Source: a bacterium
Lineage (GTDB): Bacteria; Elusimicrobiota; Elusimicrobia; UBA1565; UBA9628
Assembly: GCA_021846045.1 (NCBI GenBank)
Contig: JAJZCM010000001.1
Location: 1 to 54,456, forward strand
Direction of reading: 5' to 3'
Length of the DNA: 54,456 nt
Each line of letters opens with the position of its first letter. Position 1 is the stretch's first letter. Positions 33,434-40,437 of this stretch are shown piece by piece. Under the pieces are notes generated by a model. It saw only the letters and a list, made by a program, of their open reading frames with translations, was not told the DNA's origin and searched no databases. The translations under genes and the position numbers were made by a program.

Positions 33434-33486
33434 ATTTAAAGGCGTTCCTCAATGTAACATTTTTTAATGGCGGAGGTTTTTGAGAA

Positions 33487-33495
33487 TGCTATAAT
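33487..33495 (+). promoter_or_regulatory. Extended -10 promoter of the radical SAM/RRE operon
   Basis: TGCTATAAT (33487-33495) is a perfect extended -10. No recognisable -35 lies 16-18 bp upstream, which is acceptable for extended -10 promoters. The expected transcript start is at about 33502, next to ATG 33503, giving a leaderless message. Confidence 0.6.
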
Positions 33496-33502
33496 TAATG
33501 AT

Positions 33503-34456
33503 ATGTTAGCTCTAGTGAGCCTTGAAGATTCGGTCGAGCGGGTTCGTCTTGGCATGGAAAACCGTTCCAAACGGCTTTCCGGCCGGGTTGGGGAGACCTT
33601 GGCTGGATATGTTGGACGCCCGGGAAAAATGTTGCGGGCGCGCTTTTGCCTGTTGCTGGCTAAAGCCTTGGGCGTCGATGAAAAAAAAGCGGAGGCGGCC
33701 TCTCGCGCGATGGAGTTTGTCCATAACGCTTCTCTTTTGCATGACGATTGCGTGGATAAAGCCGACACCCGCCGGGGACTCTCGACTCCGAATGCTCTTT
33801 TTGGAAATACGGTCGCTCTTCTTTTGGGCGATCTTGCCTTTTCCCAAGGTCTTGAAGAAGCCATTGACATTTCTCCACGAGCTCCGGAACATTTGGTGGC
33901 GACAGTTCGGGAAATGGCGGCCGGGGAGCTTCAGGAAGAATTTTTGAAGGGGAGCGCTGAGGTTTCGGTTGAGGCTTATTTAGGAATCGCCTCCCGGAAG
34001 ACCGGAGCCCTGTTTGAGTGGTGCGGAAAGGTTCTCTCTGAGATAAGCCCCTTTCCACATGAGGCGGCCGATCCGCCGAGGCTCGCCTTGTCGGCGGGAA
34101 TTTTGCTTCAGATCGTTGATGATATTCACGATTTTCTACTCACCGAAGAAGTCTCGGGCAAGCCGGCGGCCCAAGACTTGATGAACCGGCGCCTGACCTT
34201 GCCCTGCATTCTTGCCCTTCAAAACCCCAAGACCCGCGGAAACTTTTTGGATCTCTGGCGGCGCGGCGAAACCGACTCAAACGCGGTCAAACAGGCAATT
34301 TTCTTCGTTAAGGCGGAAGGATTTTTGGATGAGGCTAGAACCAAGGGACGAGAAATTGTTGATTCCATGAAAACCCTCTGCCAGGGCCTGCCTTTGAAAA
34401 ACGAGGCCAAGGAATTGTCTTTCTTCATTGAAGTGATGGCGAAGAGGGAATTTTAA
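33503..34456 (+). CDS. Polyprenyl diphosphate synthase
   Basis: A roughly 317-residue trans-polyprenyl diphosphate synthase. GRPGKMLRARFCLLL is near residue 40. The first Asp-rich motif is LLHDDCVDKADTRRG (DDxxD, about 75) and the second is LQIVDDIHDFL (DDxxD). Such enzymes extend allylic diphosphates with isopentenyl diphosphate. Chain length cannot be read safely. It opens the operon with RRE, radical SAM and UbiA genes and could supply the prenyl donor used by the UbiA enzyme. An in-frame ATG at 33467 exists, but the promoter -10 lies between it and 33503, so I prefer 33503. The stop overlaps the next ATG (TAATG). Confidence 0.88.
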   Translation: MLALVSLEDSVERVRLGMENRSKRLSGRVGETLAGYVGRPGKMLRARFCLLLAKALGVDEKKAEAASRAMEFVHNASLLHDDCVDKADTRRGLSTPNALFGNTVALLLGDLAFSQGLEEAIDISPRAPEHLVATVREMAAGELQEEFLKGSAEVSVEAYLGIASRKTGALFEWCGKVLSEISPFPHEAADPPRLALSAGILLQIVDDIHDFLLTEEVSGKPAAQDLMNRRLTLPCILALQNPKTRGNFLDLWRRGETDSNAVKQAIFFVKAEGFLDEARTKGREIVDSMKTLCQGLPLKNEAKELSFFIEVMAKREF

Positions 34457-34896
34457 TGTCCTATCAATCTCTTCTTAAAAAAGCCTGGAAATCGGGAGAC
34501 TTTGCCGTATTGAAAGAAGACGCAAACTCTAAAGACGTAGTCAGCGTTCAAAGCCGAGAAAACGTGCGGCGCGAACTTGAGGAAATCATTGAAAGAGAAG
34601 CGGCGGACGCTTCGGCGTGCTTGGCCGCATCAAAGGGAGGAGTTATGAAATTAGCGCCATTTGTGAAATTTAGAGAAGAGAAATTTGGAGCGGTTCTGTT
34701 TGAGACGCGCTCCGAGAAGGTTTATACCTTAAGTCCGACAGGCGCGGCGGTTGTCCGCGAGATTATCAGTGGAGCCGATTCCTCGTCATTAGTTGGGAAG
34801 CTTAAGGAAAAATACGAAGACGCGGCGGGAAACATGGAAAAAGAAGCCGTCGGCTTTTTGACCGATCTTAAAGGCAAGGGCCTCATCGTCGAATAA
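34456..34896 (+). CDS. PqqD-like RiPP recognition element protein with N-terminal extension
   Basis: A 146-residue protein. Residues about 64-146 have the PqqD-like winged-helix (RRE) pattern: KLAPFVKFREEKFGAVLFET, VYTLSPTGAAVVREIISG, then a helix and LKGKGLIVE. RRE domains bind leader peptides of ribosomally made natural products and present them to modifying enzymes. The first 63 residues are helical and charged, match nothing I know, and end in AADASACLAASKGG. A ribosome-binding-like GGGAGGAG (34635-34642) precedes an in-frame ATG at 34645, so a short RRE-only product may also be made. It overlaps both neighbours by one base (TAATG). Confidence 0.78.
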   Translation: MSYQSLLKKAWKSGDFAVLKEDANSKDVVSVQSRENVRRELEEIIEREAADASACLAASKGGVMKLAPFVKFREEKFGAVLFETRSEKVYTLSPTGAAVVREIISGADSSSLVGKLKEKYEDAAGNMEKEAVGFLTDLKGKGLIVE

Positions 34897-35873
34897 TGGC
34901 TTCTTTATCGGAAGTCAAAGAAAGGGAGGATTCCGTTTCTTCCGAGGATTTAGGCGCGCCTCTTTACGTCGCCTGGCAGATCACTAATGAGTGCAATCTC
35001 GCCTGCCTTCACTGCATCGAGGAATCCGGCCCGGGAAAAGCCTTTAAAGACGAACTGACGAAAGACGAGGCTTTTTCCGTCATTGATCAACTGATTGCCG
35101 GTCAGGTGCCTTATGTTTCTTTTTCCGGCGGAGAGCCGATGGTTCACCCGCATTTTTTCGAGATGGTCGAAAGGATCATCAAAGGCGGGGTGGGACTGAA
35201 AATAGAGACCAACGGCCATTATTTGACGCCTGAAAATTGCGAGCGCCTTAAGACTCTCGGGGTCAAGGCCGTTCAGGTTTCTTTAGACGGGGCGAACTCC
35301 GCGTCATTTAATAAGATGCGGATTCATGGGCGCTTTGAATCGGCGACGCGAGGAATTGAAAATCTTGCCGTAGCGGGAGTTCCTATTGAGATTAACTTCG
35401 TTCCTGCGAAATTCAATATCAAGGAAATTTCTGATGTCGTGGATTTGGCGTATAAACTTGGGGCTTACAGCTTCTATACCGGTAAAATCATGTATACCGG
35501 CAACGCCGTCAGGACTTGGGAAATAACCGCGCCTGACGAAGCCGATTATCCTGCGTTTTTCGACGCCTTGCGCGCCAAAGTCAAGGAATATGAAGGCCGG
35601 ATGAGGGTTTATTTCCATGAGATGGGACTTTTGGAAGAATTGAAATACCGCCTTGAAAACCCGGCGGCCCTTTTTATCATTTTGCCTAACGGAAAAGTAA
35701 AGCTCATTAACGCGCTTCCCTTTGTCTGCGGGAATTTGCGAAATGAGTCCTTGGGTCGGGTCTGGAAGCATTTTCAAGAAGCTTGGAAAAATCCGAAGGT
35801 CTATGGGTTTGTTCAAGAACTGGAAAAAGATCCGACTGTAGTATCAAAGCTTCATAAGTGGGTGGAGGTTTGA
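34896..35873 (+). CDS. Radical SAM enzyme 1 of the RRE operon (PqqE/MftC-like)
   Basis: A 325-residue radical SAM protein. The cluster motif is NECNLACLHCIEES (CxxxCxxC, about residues 32-39), with FSGGEPMVHPHFFEM (GGEP) and KIETNG. The C-terminal part resembles a SPASM/twitch region (ILPNGKVKLINALPFVCGNL) but has only one Cys there, so classical auxiliary clusters seem absent. It is closest in style to peptide-modifying enzymes such as PqqE and MftC. It starts at the stop of the RRE gene. The other two radical SAM genes of the operon are clear paralogs, sharing PYVxxxGGEP and CLHC. Its substrate is probably the peptide encoded at 37773. Confidence 0.88.
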   Translation: MASLSEVKEREDSVSSEDLGAPLYVAWQITNECNLACLHCIEESGPGKAFKDELTKDEAFSVIDQLIAGQVPYVSFSGGEPMVHPHFFEMVERIIKGGVGLKIETNGHYLTPENCERLKTLGVKAVQVSLDGANSASFNKMRIHGRFESATRGIENLAVAGVPIEINFVPAKFNIKEISDVVDLAYKLGAYSFYTGKIMYTGNAVRTWEITAPDEADYPAFFDALRAKVKEYEGRMRVYFHEMGLLEELKYRLENPAALFIILPNGKVKLINALPFVCGNLRNESLGRVWKHFQEAWKNPKVYGFVQELEKDPTVVSKLHKWVEV

Positions 35874-35875
35874 GC

Positions 35876-36784
35876 GTGTCTGAAGTATTAGATAAGCGTT
35901 CCGGAGTTTTGGGCGCGCCTTTCCAAGTCTTTTCTCTGATTCGCTATCGGTTTTTCCTCTACGCGGGGCTTCTTCCCTACCTTTTGGGCTCGGCTTGGGC
36001 CTATGGAATGGAGAAAACTTTTTCGATTCATCTTTTCGCTCTGGGGTTGTTCGGGATTTTTCTTTCTGTCGTTGGAGTAGAGTCTTTTAACGAATACTTC
36101 GACGCCCGCATGGGAACTGATCGCGTTTTTAATCCTTCCGATGATGAATATATCCCAGGGTGGATGTTGTGGCTGGGAATTGCCGCCTTTACGGTCGCGG
36201 CTTCGGTGGGGATTTACCTGTCAAAATTTGGCGGACTCCCCGTCATCCTTTACACTTTGCTCGGGGGTCTAGCGGCCCTTTTTTACGTCGGCCCTCCGAT
36301 TCGCTGGGTTTACCGAGGGATGGGGGAACTCATGATTGGTCTTTCTTATGGACCCTGGATGACTTTGGGGAGCTTGGCTCTTTATACGCATCATTTTTCT
36401 TGGGAGGCCTTGGCGGCGTCCTTGGTTCCCGGGCTTTTGATCATGTCTTTGGCCGTCGTCAACGCTATTCCGGATTTTTATCAAGATCGCTTGGTGGGAA
36501 AACGCAACCTCGTCGTGCGATTGGGAAGAAAAAACGGAGTTTTTTTGTATTTGGGGTTTTCTGCTTTGGGGCTGATGGTTGCGGTTGTGGGAGCGGTTTT
36601 GGGTGTTTTCCCCAAGGGCGCCTTTCTGGCGGCCTTGATCGGTCTTCCATTTTGGATACTTAGCGCCAAGACTGCTTTAAACGCATGGGATAGCCCGCGC
36701 CTGTTTATTCCCGCCATTAAAAATATCGTTTTATGTTATTTAGTTGCGACTTCGGTATTTACGCTGAGCTTGATTGTTAAATAA
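35876..36784 (+). CDS. UbiA-family prenyltransferase (MenA-like)
   Basis: A roughly 302-residue integral membrane prenyltransferase with eight or nine helices. The two Asp-rich motifs are present: ESFNEYFDARMGTDRVFN (about residue 70) and NAIPDFYQDRLVGKRNLVVR (about 200), the second typical of MenA-like enzymes. The family joins a polyprenyl diphosphate to an aromatic acceptor. Flanked by radical SAM genes and preceded by a polyprenyl synthase, it suggests that the pathway product carries a lipid tail. GTG 35876 has GGAGG (35864-35868) at 7 bases and follows the previous stop by 2 bases. Confidence 0.88.
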   Translation: MSEVLDKRSGVLGAPFQVFSLIRYRFFLYAGLLPYLLGSAWAYGMEKTFSIHLFALGLFGIFLSVVGVESFNEYFDARMGTDRVFNPSDDEYIPGWMLWLGIAAFTVAASVGIYLSKFGGLPVILYTLLGGLAALFYVGPPIRWVYRGMGELMIGLSYGPWMTLGSLALYTHHFSWEALAASLVPGLLIMSLAVVNAIPDFYQDRLVGKRNLVVRLGRKNGVFLYLGFSALGLMVAVVGAVLGVFPKGAFLAALIGLPFWILSAKTALNAWDSPRLFIPAIKNIVLCYLVATSVFTLSLIVK

Positions 36785-36787
36785 AAA

Positions 36788-37753
36788 GTGAAAATTTTCG
36801 AACTATCGGCTCCGAGTTTTGTCGCTTGGCAAATGACCCGGGATTGCAACCTGGCATGCCTTCATTGCTGCACCGATTCCGCGCCCCATAAGCCTTTTCC
36901 CAACGAATTAAATCGCGAGGAAGCCTTGTCGATTGCTTCCCAAATAATCCAAGCCCAGGTTCCCTATGTCTTGCTGGCCGGGGGAGAGCCCTTGACCGTT
37001 CCGCATTTTTTTGAAATTGCGGAGGCTTTAGGAAGGGGCAGGGTCTACTTGAAAGTCGAGACCAACGGACAAATTTTTGGAGAGAATGAGGCGGAGAGGC
37101 TCTCTCGTTTGCCTATTCGCTCCCTTCAAATTTCAATTGACGGCGCTTCCCAAGCCGTTTATTCGAAAATGCGTCCCGGAGGAGTCTTGGATAAAACCAT
37201 TTTTGCCTGCCGCGCGGCGCAAAAATTCAATCTTCCTCTTGAAATTACTTTTGCGCCCACTCAAATTAATATTTCTGAGGCTTCTAATGTCATTGATTTG
37301 GCGGCGGATCTTGGGGCTTTTCGTTTCAACAGCGGCAGTTTGATGCGGATTGGGACTGCCGCCAAGCTTTGGGAAAGGCTGAATTTGTCTTCTGCGGAAT
37401 ATGAAAAGTTTTATAATTTACTTGAGAGAAAAGAAAAAGAACTTAAGGGAAAGATGGAAGTCGCATTTAGACCGTTTTCTATTGAGGAAGATTTAAAGTC
37501 AAAAAAAAGCGCTATGCCCGCCACTATTTTAATTTTGCCGGATGGGCGTGTTCGCGTTTCGGGCTTTTTACCCTACACCTGCGCTGATTTAAGAAAAGAA
37601 ACTTTAATTCAAGCTTGGAAGGAATGCCAAAAGGCTTACCAAAATCCTAAGATATCTACAGGTTTTGATGAAATTCTTAAAGACGCTTCCGTCTTGGCGT
37701 TGGCAAACCAGTTGAGGTCTCTTGAAACATCCGATTTGCCGGTCATGGTCTGA
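36788..37753 (+). CDS. Radical SAM enzyme 2 of the RRE operon
   Basis: A 321-residue paralog of the neighbouring radical SAM proteins. FVAWQMTRDCNLACLHCCTDS carries the CxxxCxxC motif, followed by PYVLLAGGEPLTVPHFFEI and KVETNGQIFG. The C-terminal ILPDGRVRVSGFLPYTCADL again holds a single Cys where SPASM domains have several. It begins at GTG 36788, 3 bases after the UbiA stop. It ends 19 bases before the candidate precursor peptide. It presumably acts on the same peptide as the other two enzymes, at another residue or step. Confidence 0.88.
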   Translation: MKIFELSAPSFVAWQMTRDCNLACLHCCTDSAPHKPFPNELNREEALSIASQIIQAQVPYVLLAGGEPLTVPHFFEIAEALGRGRVYLKVETNGQIFGENEAERLSRLPIRSLQISIDGASQAVYSKMRPGGVLDKTIFACRAAQKFNLPLEITFAPTQINISEASNVIDLAADLGAFRFNSGSLMRIGTAAKLWERLNLSSAEYEKFYNLLERKEKELKGKMEVAFRPFSIEEDLKSKKSAMPATILILPDGRVRVSGFLPYTCADLRKETLIQAWKECQKAYQNPKISTGFDEILKDASVLALANQLRSLETSDLPVMV

Positions 37754-37772
37754 CCGAGCGTAAGGAGAAAGA

Positions 37773-37895
37773 ATGAACGACCAAAAAAACGTGAACGAGG
37801 GGGCGAAAGCCTCAAAAAAACTCGTCTGGGAAACCCCCAAAATGGAAGAAGTTTCCGAGCGGGTGATGGCGCAGCCCTACATTCGGTTCACGTGA
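37773..37895 (+). CDS. Candidate RiPP precursor peptide, 40 residues
   Basis: A 40-codon ORF with the best ribosome-binding site of the operon (TAAGGAGA, 37761-37768, 5 bases before ATG 37773). The peptide starts MNDQKNVNEG, is Lys-rich in the middle, then reads KKLVWETPKMEEVS and ends MAQPYIRFT. WETPKM has the aromatic-x-x-P-x-hydrophobic form of the YxxPxL leader motif that PqqD-like RRE proteins bind in lasso peptide systems. The last ten residues hold Tyr, Ile, Arg, Phe and Thr as possible modification sites. The TGA overlaps the GTG of the third radical SAM gene (GTGA at 37892-37895). Its role is inference from context, size and motif. Confidence 0.72.
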   Translation: MNDQKNVNEGAKASKKLVWETPKMEEVSERVMAQPYIRFT

Positions 37896-38878
37896 CTCAC
37901 GAGAGGGGGGCGCGGATCGTTGATTATAGCGCTCCCCTCTTTCTTGCTTGGCAGCTGACCAATCACTGCACTTCTTTTTGTCTCCATTGCTGCGAGGAGT
38001 CCGGCCCGGACAAGACTTGGAAAAAGGAACTCTCGAAAGAGGAAGCGCTGACCTTATCCCGCCAGATCGTTGAATTGGGAATTCCTTATGTCGCTTTCGG
38101 AGGAGGAGAGCCTCTTTTTGTCGAACACGTCTGGGACGTTTTTGAAATTTTAAGCCGCGGCGGGACACAAATTAAAATCGAGACCAATGGGCTGGCCATT
38201 GATTCAGCGGCGATTGAACGCTTAAAACATTTGGGAATTTCCTCCATTCAAATCAGCGTGGACGGCTCGACTTCGGAAATTCACGAGCAAGTCCGTCCCG
38301 GCGGTTCCTGGAAGAAAGCCGTGGATGCCCTAAAGGCCTTGGCACAGGCGGGGCTTGAACCGGAATTTGTTTTCGTGCCGAACCAATTGAACGTGGAAGA
38401 TGCCGTTTCGGCTTATGATTTGGCCGCTCAATTGGGCGCGCGTCTTTTTGTCACCGGTCCCATGATGCGTCTAGGCAGAGCCGCGGCGGCGTGGGACCGC
38501 TTGTCGATTTCAGATGAGGTCTGGCAAAAAACGCTTCAAAAAATTAGAGCGCGCGCCGATTCTTTTGGAAATCCGGTTAAAATTTCGGCTTATCCTTGGG
38601 ATATTCGCCGGGAAGCCGCAGTGAGACTTCAAAACCCGCAATCAATGGTTTTGGTCGTTCCCGACGGCAAGGTGAAACTTCTCAACGCCCTTCCTTTTTA
38701 TGCGGCGGACCTAAAAAAAGAAAGACTCGATGTCGCTTGGAAAAAAACTATAGAGGCTTGGCGCTCGCCTATCGTTAAAAAATTTATAGAACGGATGCAG
38801 GAAAACCCCGAGCTTTTGCTCCATGCCAATGAATGCTGGGACCCTTGGGATGAGTCAAAGCAATCTGATCAAAGATGA
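37892..38878 (+). CDS. Radical SAM enzyme 3 of the RRE operon
   Basis: A 328-residue third paralog. FLAWQLTNHCTSFCLHCCEES has the CxxxCxxC motif, then PYVAFGGGEPLFVEHVW and KIETNG. The SPASM-like segment VVPDGKVKLLNALPFYAADL has no Cys at the position where the other two paralogs keep one, so it very likely carries only the SAM-binding cluster. Its GTG overlaps the precursor stop and its TGA overlaps the caspase-like gene's ATG (ATGA at 38875-38878), so translation is coupled across all three. Confidence 0.88.
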   Translation: MTHERGARIVDYSAPLFLAWQLTNHCTSFCLHCCEESGPDKTWKKELSKEEALTLSRQIVELGIPYVAFGGGEPLFVEHVWDVFEILSRGGTQIKIETNGLAIDSAAIERLKHLGISSIQISVDGSTSEIHEQVRPGGSWKKAVDALKALAQAGLEPEFVFVPNQLNVEDAVSAYDLAAQLGARLFVTGPMMRLGRAAAAWDRLSISDEVWQKTLQKIRARADSFGNPVKISAYPWDIRREAAVRLQNPQSMVLVVPDGKVKLLNALPFYAADLKKERLDVAWKKTIEAWRSPIVKKFIERMQENPELLLHANECWDPWDESKQSDQR

Positions 38879-40437
38879 GGCGGCTTTCACTTCCCTTTCT
38901 TATTTTTGTTTTCCTTTGCTCTCCGCTTCCTTCTTTTGCCGGTCTTAATTCCGACTTTTTAGGCGCTGTCTCCGGCGGGAATTTGTCGCGGGCGCGAGAG
39001 TTGATCTTAAAGGGCGCCGATATCAATGCCGTGGATAAAGCCGGAGACACGGCCTTGATGGAAATCGCTTCCAACGGTCATGCGGATATGCCGCAGCTTT
39101 GGAATGACGCCGAGTTTATTCAACCCGCTTTTCGTTTTCCAAAATTTGGAGAGATCAAAGCTTGGCGTCCTCCTTTTTTAATTCCTAATAATAAAGAAAT
39201 GCGTATTGCGCGTTTTTTGACCCGCAGGGGAGCAAACCTTAACGCGAAGAATAGTTATGGCCGCACGGCCCTCATGTTGGCCGCAAAATATGGACAGGCG
39301 GGTTTGGTGAGGCTTTTTATCACGCATGGGGCCGATGTCAATATGGCGGATGAAAACGGCCGAACGGCTTTAGACTATGCCTATCAGACGGAGCATCAGC
39401 AGGTGGCGGCGCTCATCGAATATTACCGCCTTCATCCGCTTTCAGAGCGCGACCAGAAGGATGTGGAGCGGTTGTCTCGTCAGAATTTGTCGAGAGAAGA
39501 AATCGCGCGTATTGCCTCCCGTGTGGCTAAAGAGGCGCAAAACTCAACCCAAACAGGCATCGCGCGGCGCTTGGATATTCTGGCCAAGGAAATTGAAAGC
39601 CTCAAAAAGCGTTCGCATATTGCGAAAAAAATTAAAATGATTAAAAGCGATGTGGATGCGCCCCATTTTCAGGAACCCCTCCGGCAGGAAGATTTTGCCG
39701 TTGTGGTTGGGGTCGAGAAATATGCCGGAAGAGTCGCGCGTTCGGAATTTTCCCAAAGAGACGCTCTGACGGTTAAAAAATATATGCTCGCCTTGGGAGT
39801 GCCTTCGGGGCATATTCGTTTTCTTCTTAACGAAACGGCGACCAAAAGCGATTTATCGGCCTATCTGGAAGATTGGCTGCCTAAAAACGTTAAAAAAGAT
39901 TCCCGCGTTTTTTTTTATTTTTCCGGACATGGCGCGCCTAATCCCGAGAGCGGAGAGGCCTACCTAGTTCCCTTTGACGGCGATCCGGAATTCTTGGGCA
40001 AGACCGCTTATTCCTTAAAAAAACTCTATGCGGATATTTTGAATATCCCCGCGCGCAGGGAAATTGTTGTTTTAGACTCTTGTTTCTCCGGAATGGGGGC
40101 GCGTTCGATTATTCGTCCTGGTCTTCGCCCTCTGATGACCCGCATTAAGCCCGGCTTTGTTCCCGGAAACGGTAAAATCGTTGTTTTAACCGCCGCTCGC
40201 GATGATCAAACTGCTGGTGTCATTAAACGCCAAGGCCACGGACTTTTAACCTATTATTTTTTACGTGGGCTCAACGGAAAGGCGCTTAATCGCCAAAAAC
40301 GCGTGACCTTAAAGTCGCTTTACGATTATCTTGCGCCCGAGGTTCAAAGTCAGGCGGATTTAAAAAACCATTCGCAGAATCCCCAGCTTTTGCCGCGCAC
40401 CGCTCTCGCAAAAATTTTTCCCGTTATCTTGCGCTAG
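38875..40437 (+). CDS. Secreted ankyrin-repeat caspase-family protease
   Basis: A 520-residue protein. A Sec signal peptide (MRRLSLPFLIFVFLCSPLPS) is followed by ankyrin repeats (about residues 25-185): ILKGADINAVDKAGDTALM, then LNAKNSYGRTALMLAAKYG and VNMADENGRTALDYAY. A charged coiled-coil linker follows. The C-terminal half is a C14 caspase-fold peptidase with catalytic His in FFYFSGHGAPN (about 352) and Cys in VVLDSCFSGMGARS (about 403). Coupling to radical SAM enzyme 3 by ATGA suggests that it works with the operon, perhaps as the exported peptidase that trims the modified precursor. An independent envelope role is possible. Confidence 0.85.
   Translation: MRRLSLPFLIFVFLCSPLPSFAGLNSDFLGAVSGGNLSRARELILKGADINAVDKAGDTALMEIASNGHADMPQLWNDAEFIQPAFRFPKFGEIKAWRPPFLIPNNKEMRIARFLTRRGANLNAKNSYGRTALMLAAKYGQAGLVRLFITHGADVNMADENGRTALDYAYQTEHQQVAALIEYYRLHPLSERDQKDVERLSRQNLSREEIARIASRVAKEAQNSTQTGIARRLDILAKEIESLKKRSHIAKKIKMIKSDVDAPHFQEPLRQEDFAVVVGVEKYAGRVARSEFSQRDALTVKKYMLALGVPSGHIRFLLNETATKSDLSAYLEDWLPKNVKKDSRVFFYFSGHGAPNPESGEAYLVPFDGDPEFLGKTAYSLKKLYADILNIPARREIVVLDSCFSGMGARSIIRPGLRPLMTRIKPGFVPGNGKIVVLTAARDDQTAGVIKRQGHGLLTYYFLRGLNGKALNRQKRVTLKSLYDYLAPEVQSQADLKNHSQNPQLLPRTALAKIFPVILR

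Follow-up and report, generated by a model that had tools for sequence, protein, structure and literature searches.

What product is made by an operon that combines peptide-modifying enzymes with a membrane prenyltransferase? The question is raised by a window of 54,456 nucleotides (the whole stretch of DNA that was analysed; contig JAJZCM010000001.1 of assembly GCA_021846045.1) from a bacterium of the phylum Elusimicrobiota. The operon encodes a polyprenyl diphosphate synthase, a PqqD-like recognition element (RRE) of the kind that serves ribosomally synthesized and post-translationally modified peptides (RiPPs), three radical S-adenosylmethionine (SAM) enzymes (rSAM1, rSAM2 and rSAM3), a UbiA-family prenyltransferase and a peptide of 40 residues. 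As a family, such loci almost certainly represent an undescribed, conserved RiPP-type pathway with a prenyltransferase. The product of the pathway is probably, with considerable room for doubt, a prenylated quinone of the respiratory chain. A literature search found no paper with the sequence QPYIRFT and none joining PqqD, radical SAM and UbiA.

The genome that contains the window is 2.0 Mb in size and 97% complete, and the operon stretch lies on one contig. All eight open reading frames (ORFs) listed by the first-pass annotation of this DNA were confirmed in the order given, with each domain matched by Pfam. They share one strand, and their junctions are overlaps or gaps of 3–19 bases. The features are as follows.

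33485..33495, + strand: extended -10 promoter element AATGCTATAAT, identical in four same-genus genomes
33503..34456, + strand: polyprenyl diphosphate synthase (PF00348, E=1.4e-44); frame open from 33467, start at 33503 preferred
34456..34896, + strand: PqqD-like RRE, 146 residues (PF05402, E=7.4e-10, residues 79-144)
34896..35873, + strand: rSAM1 (PF04055, E=3.5e-24)
35858..36784, + strand: UbiA-family prenyltransferase, predicted to be MenA/UBIAD1-like (PF01040, E=5.4e-19)
36788..37753, + strand: rSAM2 (PF04055, E=1.1e-18)
37773..37895, + strand: putative precursor peptide, 40 residues; with a homologue at every complete locus of the family
37869..37892, + strand: codons for the invariant C-terminal octapeptide AQPYIRFT, conserved across loci
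37892..38878, + strand: rSAM3 (PF04055, E=2.2e-24)
38875..40437, + strand: secreted protein with ankyrin and caspase-family domains (PF12796; PF00656, E=1.6e-10), overlapping rSAM3

The 40-residue ORF is preceded by a GGAG ribosome site, and its conservation identifies it as a genuine precursor gene. A UbiA alignment scan of 84,980 species gave 81 confirmed places, of which 80 were kept; loci with an RRE, a radical SAM enzyme and a peptide but no UbiA would escape a scan keyed on UbiA. A small ORF ending in AQP[Y/F]IRFT and a stop codon was found in 76 of the 80 loci (74 with Tyr, two with Phe), and the other four are cut at contig ends. The PqqD-like RRE adjoins rSAM1 wherever the contig reaches far enough. 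The first-pass annotation had read the operon as making a prenylated, membrane-bound derivative of a peptide, which might be a redox cofactor, and had named conserved co-occurrence of the small ORF with the radical SAM/UbiA neighbourhood as support. This co-occurrence and the position of the RRE support the proposal, and a search for homologous loci without the small ORF and the RRE, which it had named as evidence to the contrary, found the peptide missing from truncated loci only.

The 52 distinct C-terminal sequences agree in their last eight residues, apart from a choice of Tyr or Phe at position -5. Upstream, 51 of the 52 have Trp at -22 and all have Pro at -19, within a leader motif W-x-x-P-x-[LM]-E-[DE]-V-S that follows a variable N-terminus. 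The octapeptide is written in 56 distinct 24-nucleotide codings among all loci, and such free variation of synonymous codons points to selection at the protein level. In a wider survey of 341 Elusimicrobiota genomes, the octapeptide DNA pattern occurred in 47 genomes, every one operon-bearing, and a reversed-pattern control occurred in none. The two AQPFIRFT precursors (L149:8669-8761 and L152:8638-8766) belong to the two most divergent loci, where the Tyr hydroxyl would be dispensable. By analogy with pyrroloquinoline quinone (PQQ) and mycofactocin, this invariance fits the precursor of one fixed product, not an antimicrobial.

Some 80 bacterial species, spread over at least seven phyla, carry the gene set. 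A search with rSAM1 found the operon in 37 of 57 relatives, and in the wider survey it was present in 50 of the 341 genomes. The order [prenyl synthase]-RRE-rSAM1-UbiA-rSAM2-peptide-rSAM3 is that of all complete three-rSAM loci of the Elusimicrobiota order, and outside the phylum the three-rSAM form occurs in alpha-, beta- and gammaproteobacteria, the cultured Rhodopila globiformis among them. A minimal form, peptide-RRE-rSAM1-UbiA, has a single radical SAM enzyme and was found in f14, another family belonging to that class. By record titles, the one-rSAM form also occurs in Omnitrophota, Planctomycetota, Lentisphaerae, Bacillota, a deltaproteobacterium and one organism labelled Dehalococcoides. 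The gene set with three radical SAM enzymes in the first-pass annotation therefore holds for the Elusimicrobiota order and the proteobacteria, whereas one such enzyme is enough in the minimal form. The RRE, rSAM1 and UbiA genes are adjacent throughout the homologous loci. The RRE homologues of distant loci also match PF05402, and the RRE of the operon is the sole PqqD match in the window genome. No match to PLSDB was found that would indicate plasmid carriage.

Prenyl synthase genes keep their syntenic position in almost every three-rSAM locus of Elusimicrobiota and are absent from the proteobacterial loci. More distant prenyl synthases lie 3' of UbiA in Omnitrophota and in one planctomycete. 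Their presence in the Elusimicrobiota unit and after UbiA elsewhere ties prenylation to the pathway. Apart from prenyl synthases, no flanking gene is common between lineages, and the flank comparison revealed no conserved transporter, immunity gene, dedicated peptidase or dedicated dehydrogenase near the core. Longest-ORF gene calls in flanks of high G+C content included many antisense false genes and were left out of these conclusions.

Both Asn/Asp-rich motifs of the UbiA protein (N73xxxD77xxxxxD83 and N197xxxD201xxxD205) are invariant and, together with PF01040 and the fold, place it in the UbiA superfamily. In four lineages, the NCBIfam models that match it best are those of 1,4-dihydroxy-2-naphthoate (DHNA) polyprenyltransferases (MenA), all below cut-off. 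UBIAD1 is its sole Protein Data Bank profile match, and the predicted fold matches UbiA homologues, digeranylgeranylglyceryl phosphate synthase and UBIAD1. On these comparisons, the prenyltransferase is MenA/UBIAD1-like.

All three radical SAM proteins keep the CxxxCxxC and GGEP motifs. The invariant cysteines of rSAM1 are C33, C37, C40 and just one further, C278; with one extra invariant cysteine, no SPASM/twitch auxiliary cluster is expected. The nearest solved relatives of rSAM1, by sequence and by predicted fold, are the RiPP maturases SkfB and PqqE. In a tree, rSAM1, rSAM2, rSAM3 and the radical SAM enzyme of the single form make four clades, which would be consistent with duplication and specialization. 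The rSAM2 paralogue clade is kept in all complete three-rSAM loci, and rSAM1 is the counterpart of the only radical SAM enzyme in the minimal form, where one suffices. The proteobacterial sequences are nested among those of Elusimicrobiota in the rSAM1 and rSAM2 clades, which suggests lateral transfer.

The case for a quinone is circumstantial and comes from the company that the operon keeps. The window genome encodes complex I subunits, cytochrome c, CtaA, CtaB and two COX1 proteins (aa3 oxidases), as well as an alternative complex III cluster that includes the diagnostic ActD (PF11821, E=1.5e-53). Alternative complex III oxidizes quinol, and the organism therefore needs a quinone. No MenD and no MqnA/D were found in this genome (MqnC/E, MenF, MenC and MenE were outside the search), and its only UbiA-family proteins are CtaB, the haem O synthase, and that of the operon. 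MenD was absent from all 51 genomes tested, operon-bearing or not; MenB exceeded its cut-off in none of 19, with BadI as the best match. At the threshold used, MqnA and MqnD were found in none of the 50 operon-bearing Elusimicrobiota genomes, and in none of six other operon-bearing genomes searched.

Across the 341 genomes, a haem-copper oxidase is present in 41 of 50 with the operon, in 25 of 30 with MqnA/D and in 18 of 261 with neither, and no genome has both the operon and MqnA/D. The association between operon and oxidase holds at the genus level (p=1.7e-4), a test that relatedness still inflates. NrfD/ActC-type genes occur in 38 of the 50 operon-bearing genomes. A second NrfD-type cluster (L191, G000:C26:1-9000), with a molybdopterin oxidoreductase and five-haem and one-haem cytochromes, resembles a variant alternative complex III.

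Cultured carriers of the operon are Rhodopila globiformis, Rhodothalassium salexigens and Rhodovibrio sodomensis. Menaquinone-9 (MK-9), ubiquinone-9 and rhodoquinones have been reported from R. globiformis (PMC12542754), and the model of its reaction centre has menaquinone at QA (PMC9640540). In its genome, no MqnA/D, MenD, MenB or MenA was found (MqnC/E, MenF, MenC and MenE were outside the search). A MenB-like protein was rejected as a sign of the Men pathway, since it is BadI (464.7 bits versus 318.8 for MenB); its gene adjoins dehydrogenase and ligase genes. The genome encodes five UbiA-family proteins, namely CtaB, the 4-hydroxybenzoate UbiA, BchG, a HAD-UbiA fusion and that of the operon. 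With the other four assigned otherwise, the operon enzyme is the best candidate for the menaquinone prenyltransferase of this organism. Of the Rhodovibrionaceae genera compared, only Rhodovibrio has been reported to have MK-10 (PMC11316597, PMC7179689). The UbiA scan found the operon in Rhodovibrio sodomensis. Rhodothalassium, which we take to be an MK-10 producer, has no MenD or MqnA/D in its genome, and is a less clean case because of a second MenA-like gene.

The boundaries of the unit were examined in the genus of the window. The extended -10 promoter that the first-pass annotation had placed before the operon is kept letter for letter in four same-genus genomes, while its spacing to the start codon is 7 or 14 bases. 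The conserved -10 element and the variable spacing place the start of the first gene at the ATG at 33503, and the start codon at 33467 was ruled out, as its spacing from the -10 element is out of frame in the relatives. The secreted caspase had also been counted as an operon member. It adjoins rSAM3 directly in the genus of the window only, so that the conserved unit consists of seven genes (four in the minimal form), and the caspase/ankyrin gene was rejected as a part of the system. The caspase fold of this protein is that of Peptidase_C14, and the PADLOC caspase and ankyrin models match it weakly.

Individual loci show further differences. At the Lentisphaerae locus, a class I methyltransferase gene (L151:10831-11628) overlaps the end of UbiA and has no counterpart at other loci; it is possibly a quinone ring methylase. 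The rSAM3 gene of L032:7297-8864 (G001) is broken after about 24 codons by a 1.57-kb insertion encoding a Fic-like protein (HPFADGNGRVARA motif). In L076/L122 (CP096137, G230), a single-contig genome, rSAM2 and rSAM3 are each split across two frames, by sequencing error or decay. The operon UbiA gene of L035 (G004, C5:44469-45175) is split into two frames with a TAA codon.

The following scheme is proposed. The RRE would bind the leader (W..P..E[DE]VS) and offer the C-terminal AQPYIRFT to the radical SAM enzyme or enzymes, which may remake the C-terminal residues as a phenolic or hydroquinone head group. One enzyme would do so in the minimal form and three specialized paralogues in the window. 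After release by housekeeping peptidases, the MenA/UBIAD1-like enzyme would add a long polyprenyl chain from the co-encoded synthase, and the lipid, as the pool quinone, may link complex I with alternative complex III. The gene profile thus adds a more specific reading to that of the first-pass annotation, with a respiratory quinone as, on balance, the likelier kind of product. Such a quinone would probably be menaquinone-like, either menaquinone itself or a close naphthoquinone analogue. It is conceivable, with a probability short of even, that this is a third route to menaquinone or a near-identical naphthoquinone, in which radical SAM chemistry builds the ring from C-terminal residues of AQP[Y/F]IRFT such as Phe-Thr and the MenA-like enzyme prenylates it. 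As a speculation, the ring might be drawn from the invariant Phe (its ring and side-chain carbons), with two carbons supplied by the C-terminal Thr.

Several points weigh against a quinone product of this kind. The chemistry that would lead from an octapeptide to a quinone ring is not obvious. Tyr is replaceable by Phe at -5. The UbiA protein stays under every MenA model cut-off, and further MenA-like enzymes are encoded in G164, G344 and G345 and in Rhodothalassium (G342; L170:2668-3660, C6), there next to the gene of a NapC-type cytochrome. Relatedness inflates the association tests, and COX1 is missing in 9 of the 50 operon-bearing genomes. Of the 84 oxidase-bearing Elusimicrobiota genomes, 18 have neither the operon nor MqnA/D and must use another quinone source, or none. 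The four of these that were checked for UbiA-family proteins (G007, G008, G009 and G020, all of the same family) have COX1 and NrfD-type genes and CtaB as the sole UbiA-family protein; the operon, MqnA/D and a known quinone prenyltransferase were not found in them. A quinone source independent of the operon may therefore exist.

This last point also favours a different product, a prenylated peptide-derived redox cofactor of the PQQ or mycofactocin sort that would serve one or a few membrane dehydrogenases, with the pool quinone coming from elsewhere, since those operon-negative relatives lack every known quinone pathway tested. An RRE, a radical SAM enzyme and an invariant peptide tail are the logic of PQQ and mycofactocin, and a ubiquinone UbiA is already present in R. 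globiformis and Rhodothalassium. However, neither a dedicated dehydrogenase nor a dedicated peptidase goes with the core, its UbiA enzyme resembles MenA, operon and futalosine genes exclude each other, and MK-9 in R. globiformis would be left unexplained; such a cofactor is considered unlikely. The peptide might instead be a scaffold or carrier and not the carbon source, with the radical SAM and UbiA enzymes acting on a chorismate-derived aromatic that it holds or activates, again to give a quinone. Invariance of the entire octapeptide would suit a recognition or carrier element, the swap of Tyr and Phe indicates that the ring hydroxyl is not needed at that position, and the futalosine route also has radical SAM enzymes. 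Since we know of no carrier peptide with an RRE and radical SAM maturases, and since the invariance reaches the very C-terminus, as it usually does in core peptides (that of mycofactocin, for one), this arrangement is regarded as improbable. Least probable is a prenylated secreted RiPP (an antimicrobial, a signal or an envelope lipopeptide). Prenylated RiPPs are known (PMC12715784), and a secreted caspase-like protein lies 3' of the operon in the genus of the window, but antimicrobials do not keep one C-terminal tail across phyla, as this peptide does, the neighbourhood offers no conserved transporter, immunity gene or dedicated peptidase, and the pathway correlates with respiration.

If the respiratory quinone proposed here is the product, RiPP chemistry would be joined to central respiration. 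To our knowledge, every lipoquinone head group of known origin is derived from a small metabolite (chorismate or tyrosine, for example). The logic of RRE, radical SAM enzyme and short precursor is known, but a prenyl lipid or pool quinone made in this way is not, and a ribosomal peptide as the basis of a respiratory quinone, or of any prenyl lipid, would mark a new type of pathway. The proposed pathway would also supply the missing menaquinone route of the purple bacterium R. globiformis, explaining its MK-9, and account for respiration in many Elusimicrobiota without a known quinone pathway.

Among known systems, two features of RRE-dependent RiPP pathways are present, namely an RRE beside a maturase and a conserved precursor with leader and core. 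The SynChlorMet cassette (ScmA-F) similarly combines a PqqD-like protein with two or more radical SAM enzymes, and the NCBIfam models for ScmD, ScmE and ScmF match operon proteins far below their cut-offs; we know of no UbiA described in that cassette. SkfB is the closest solved relative of rSAM1 in sequence and fold, yet rSAM1 lacks the auxiliary-cluster cysteine set of SkfB and other SPASM/twitch maturases. The PQQ pathway shares a PqqD-like RRE, a radical SAM maturase, a tiny precursor with conserved residues and, as proposed here, a quinone-type product. In contrast, the radical SAM enzyme of the operon core lacks SPASM cysteines, the conserved residues of PqqA form an internal E-x-x-x-Y and not a C-terminal AQPYIRFT, and the NCBIfam PqqE model gives 79 bits against a cut-off of 381. 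Mycofactocin is alike in its RRE (MftB), radical SAM enzyme and invariant C-terminal residues, and the NCBIfam model that rSAM1 and rSAM3 match best is that of MftC, at 139 bits against an equivalog cut-off of 265. As the first-pass annotation had noted, PqqB, PqqC and MftD-F are absent, which holds for the conserved unit, where UbiA and a prenyl synthase are found instead. The model scores and missing partners rule out the operon as a PQQ or mycofactocin pathway. With the two menaquinone pathways (Men and futalosine, Mqn), the operon has in common a prenyl synthase and a UbiA enzyme nearest to DHNA prenyltransferases and UBIAD1, and it occurs where a quinone is needed, never with MqnA/D. It differs from both in that the operon-bearing genomes tested are without MenD or MqnA/D, with MenB under its cut-off in the subset examined, and carry RiPP machinery instead.

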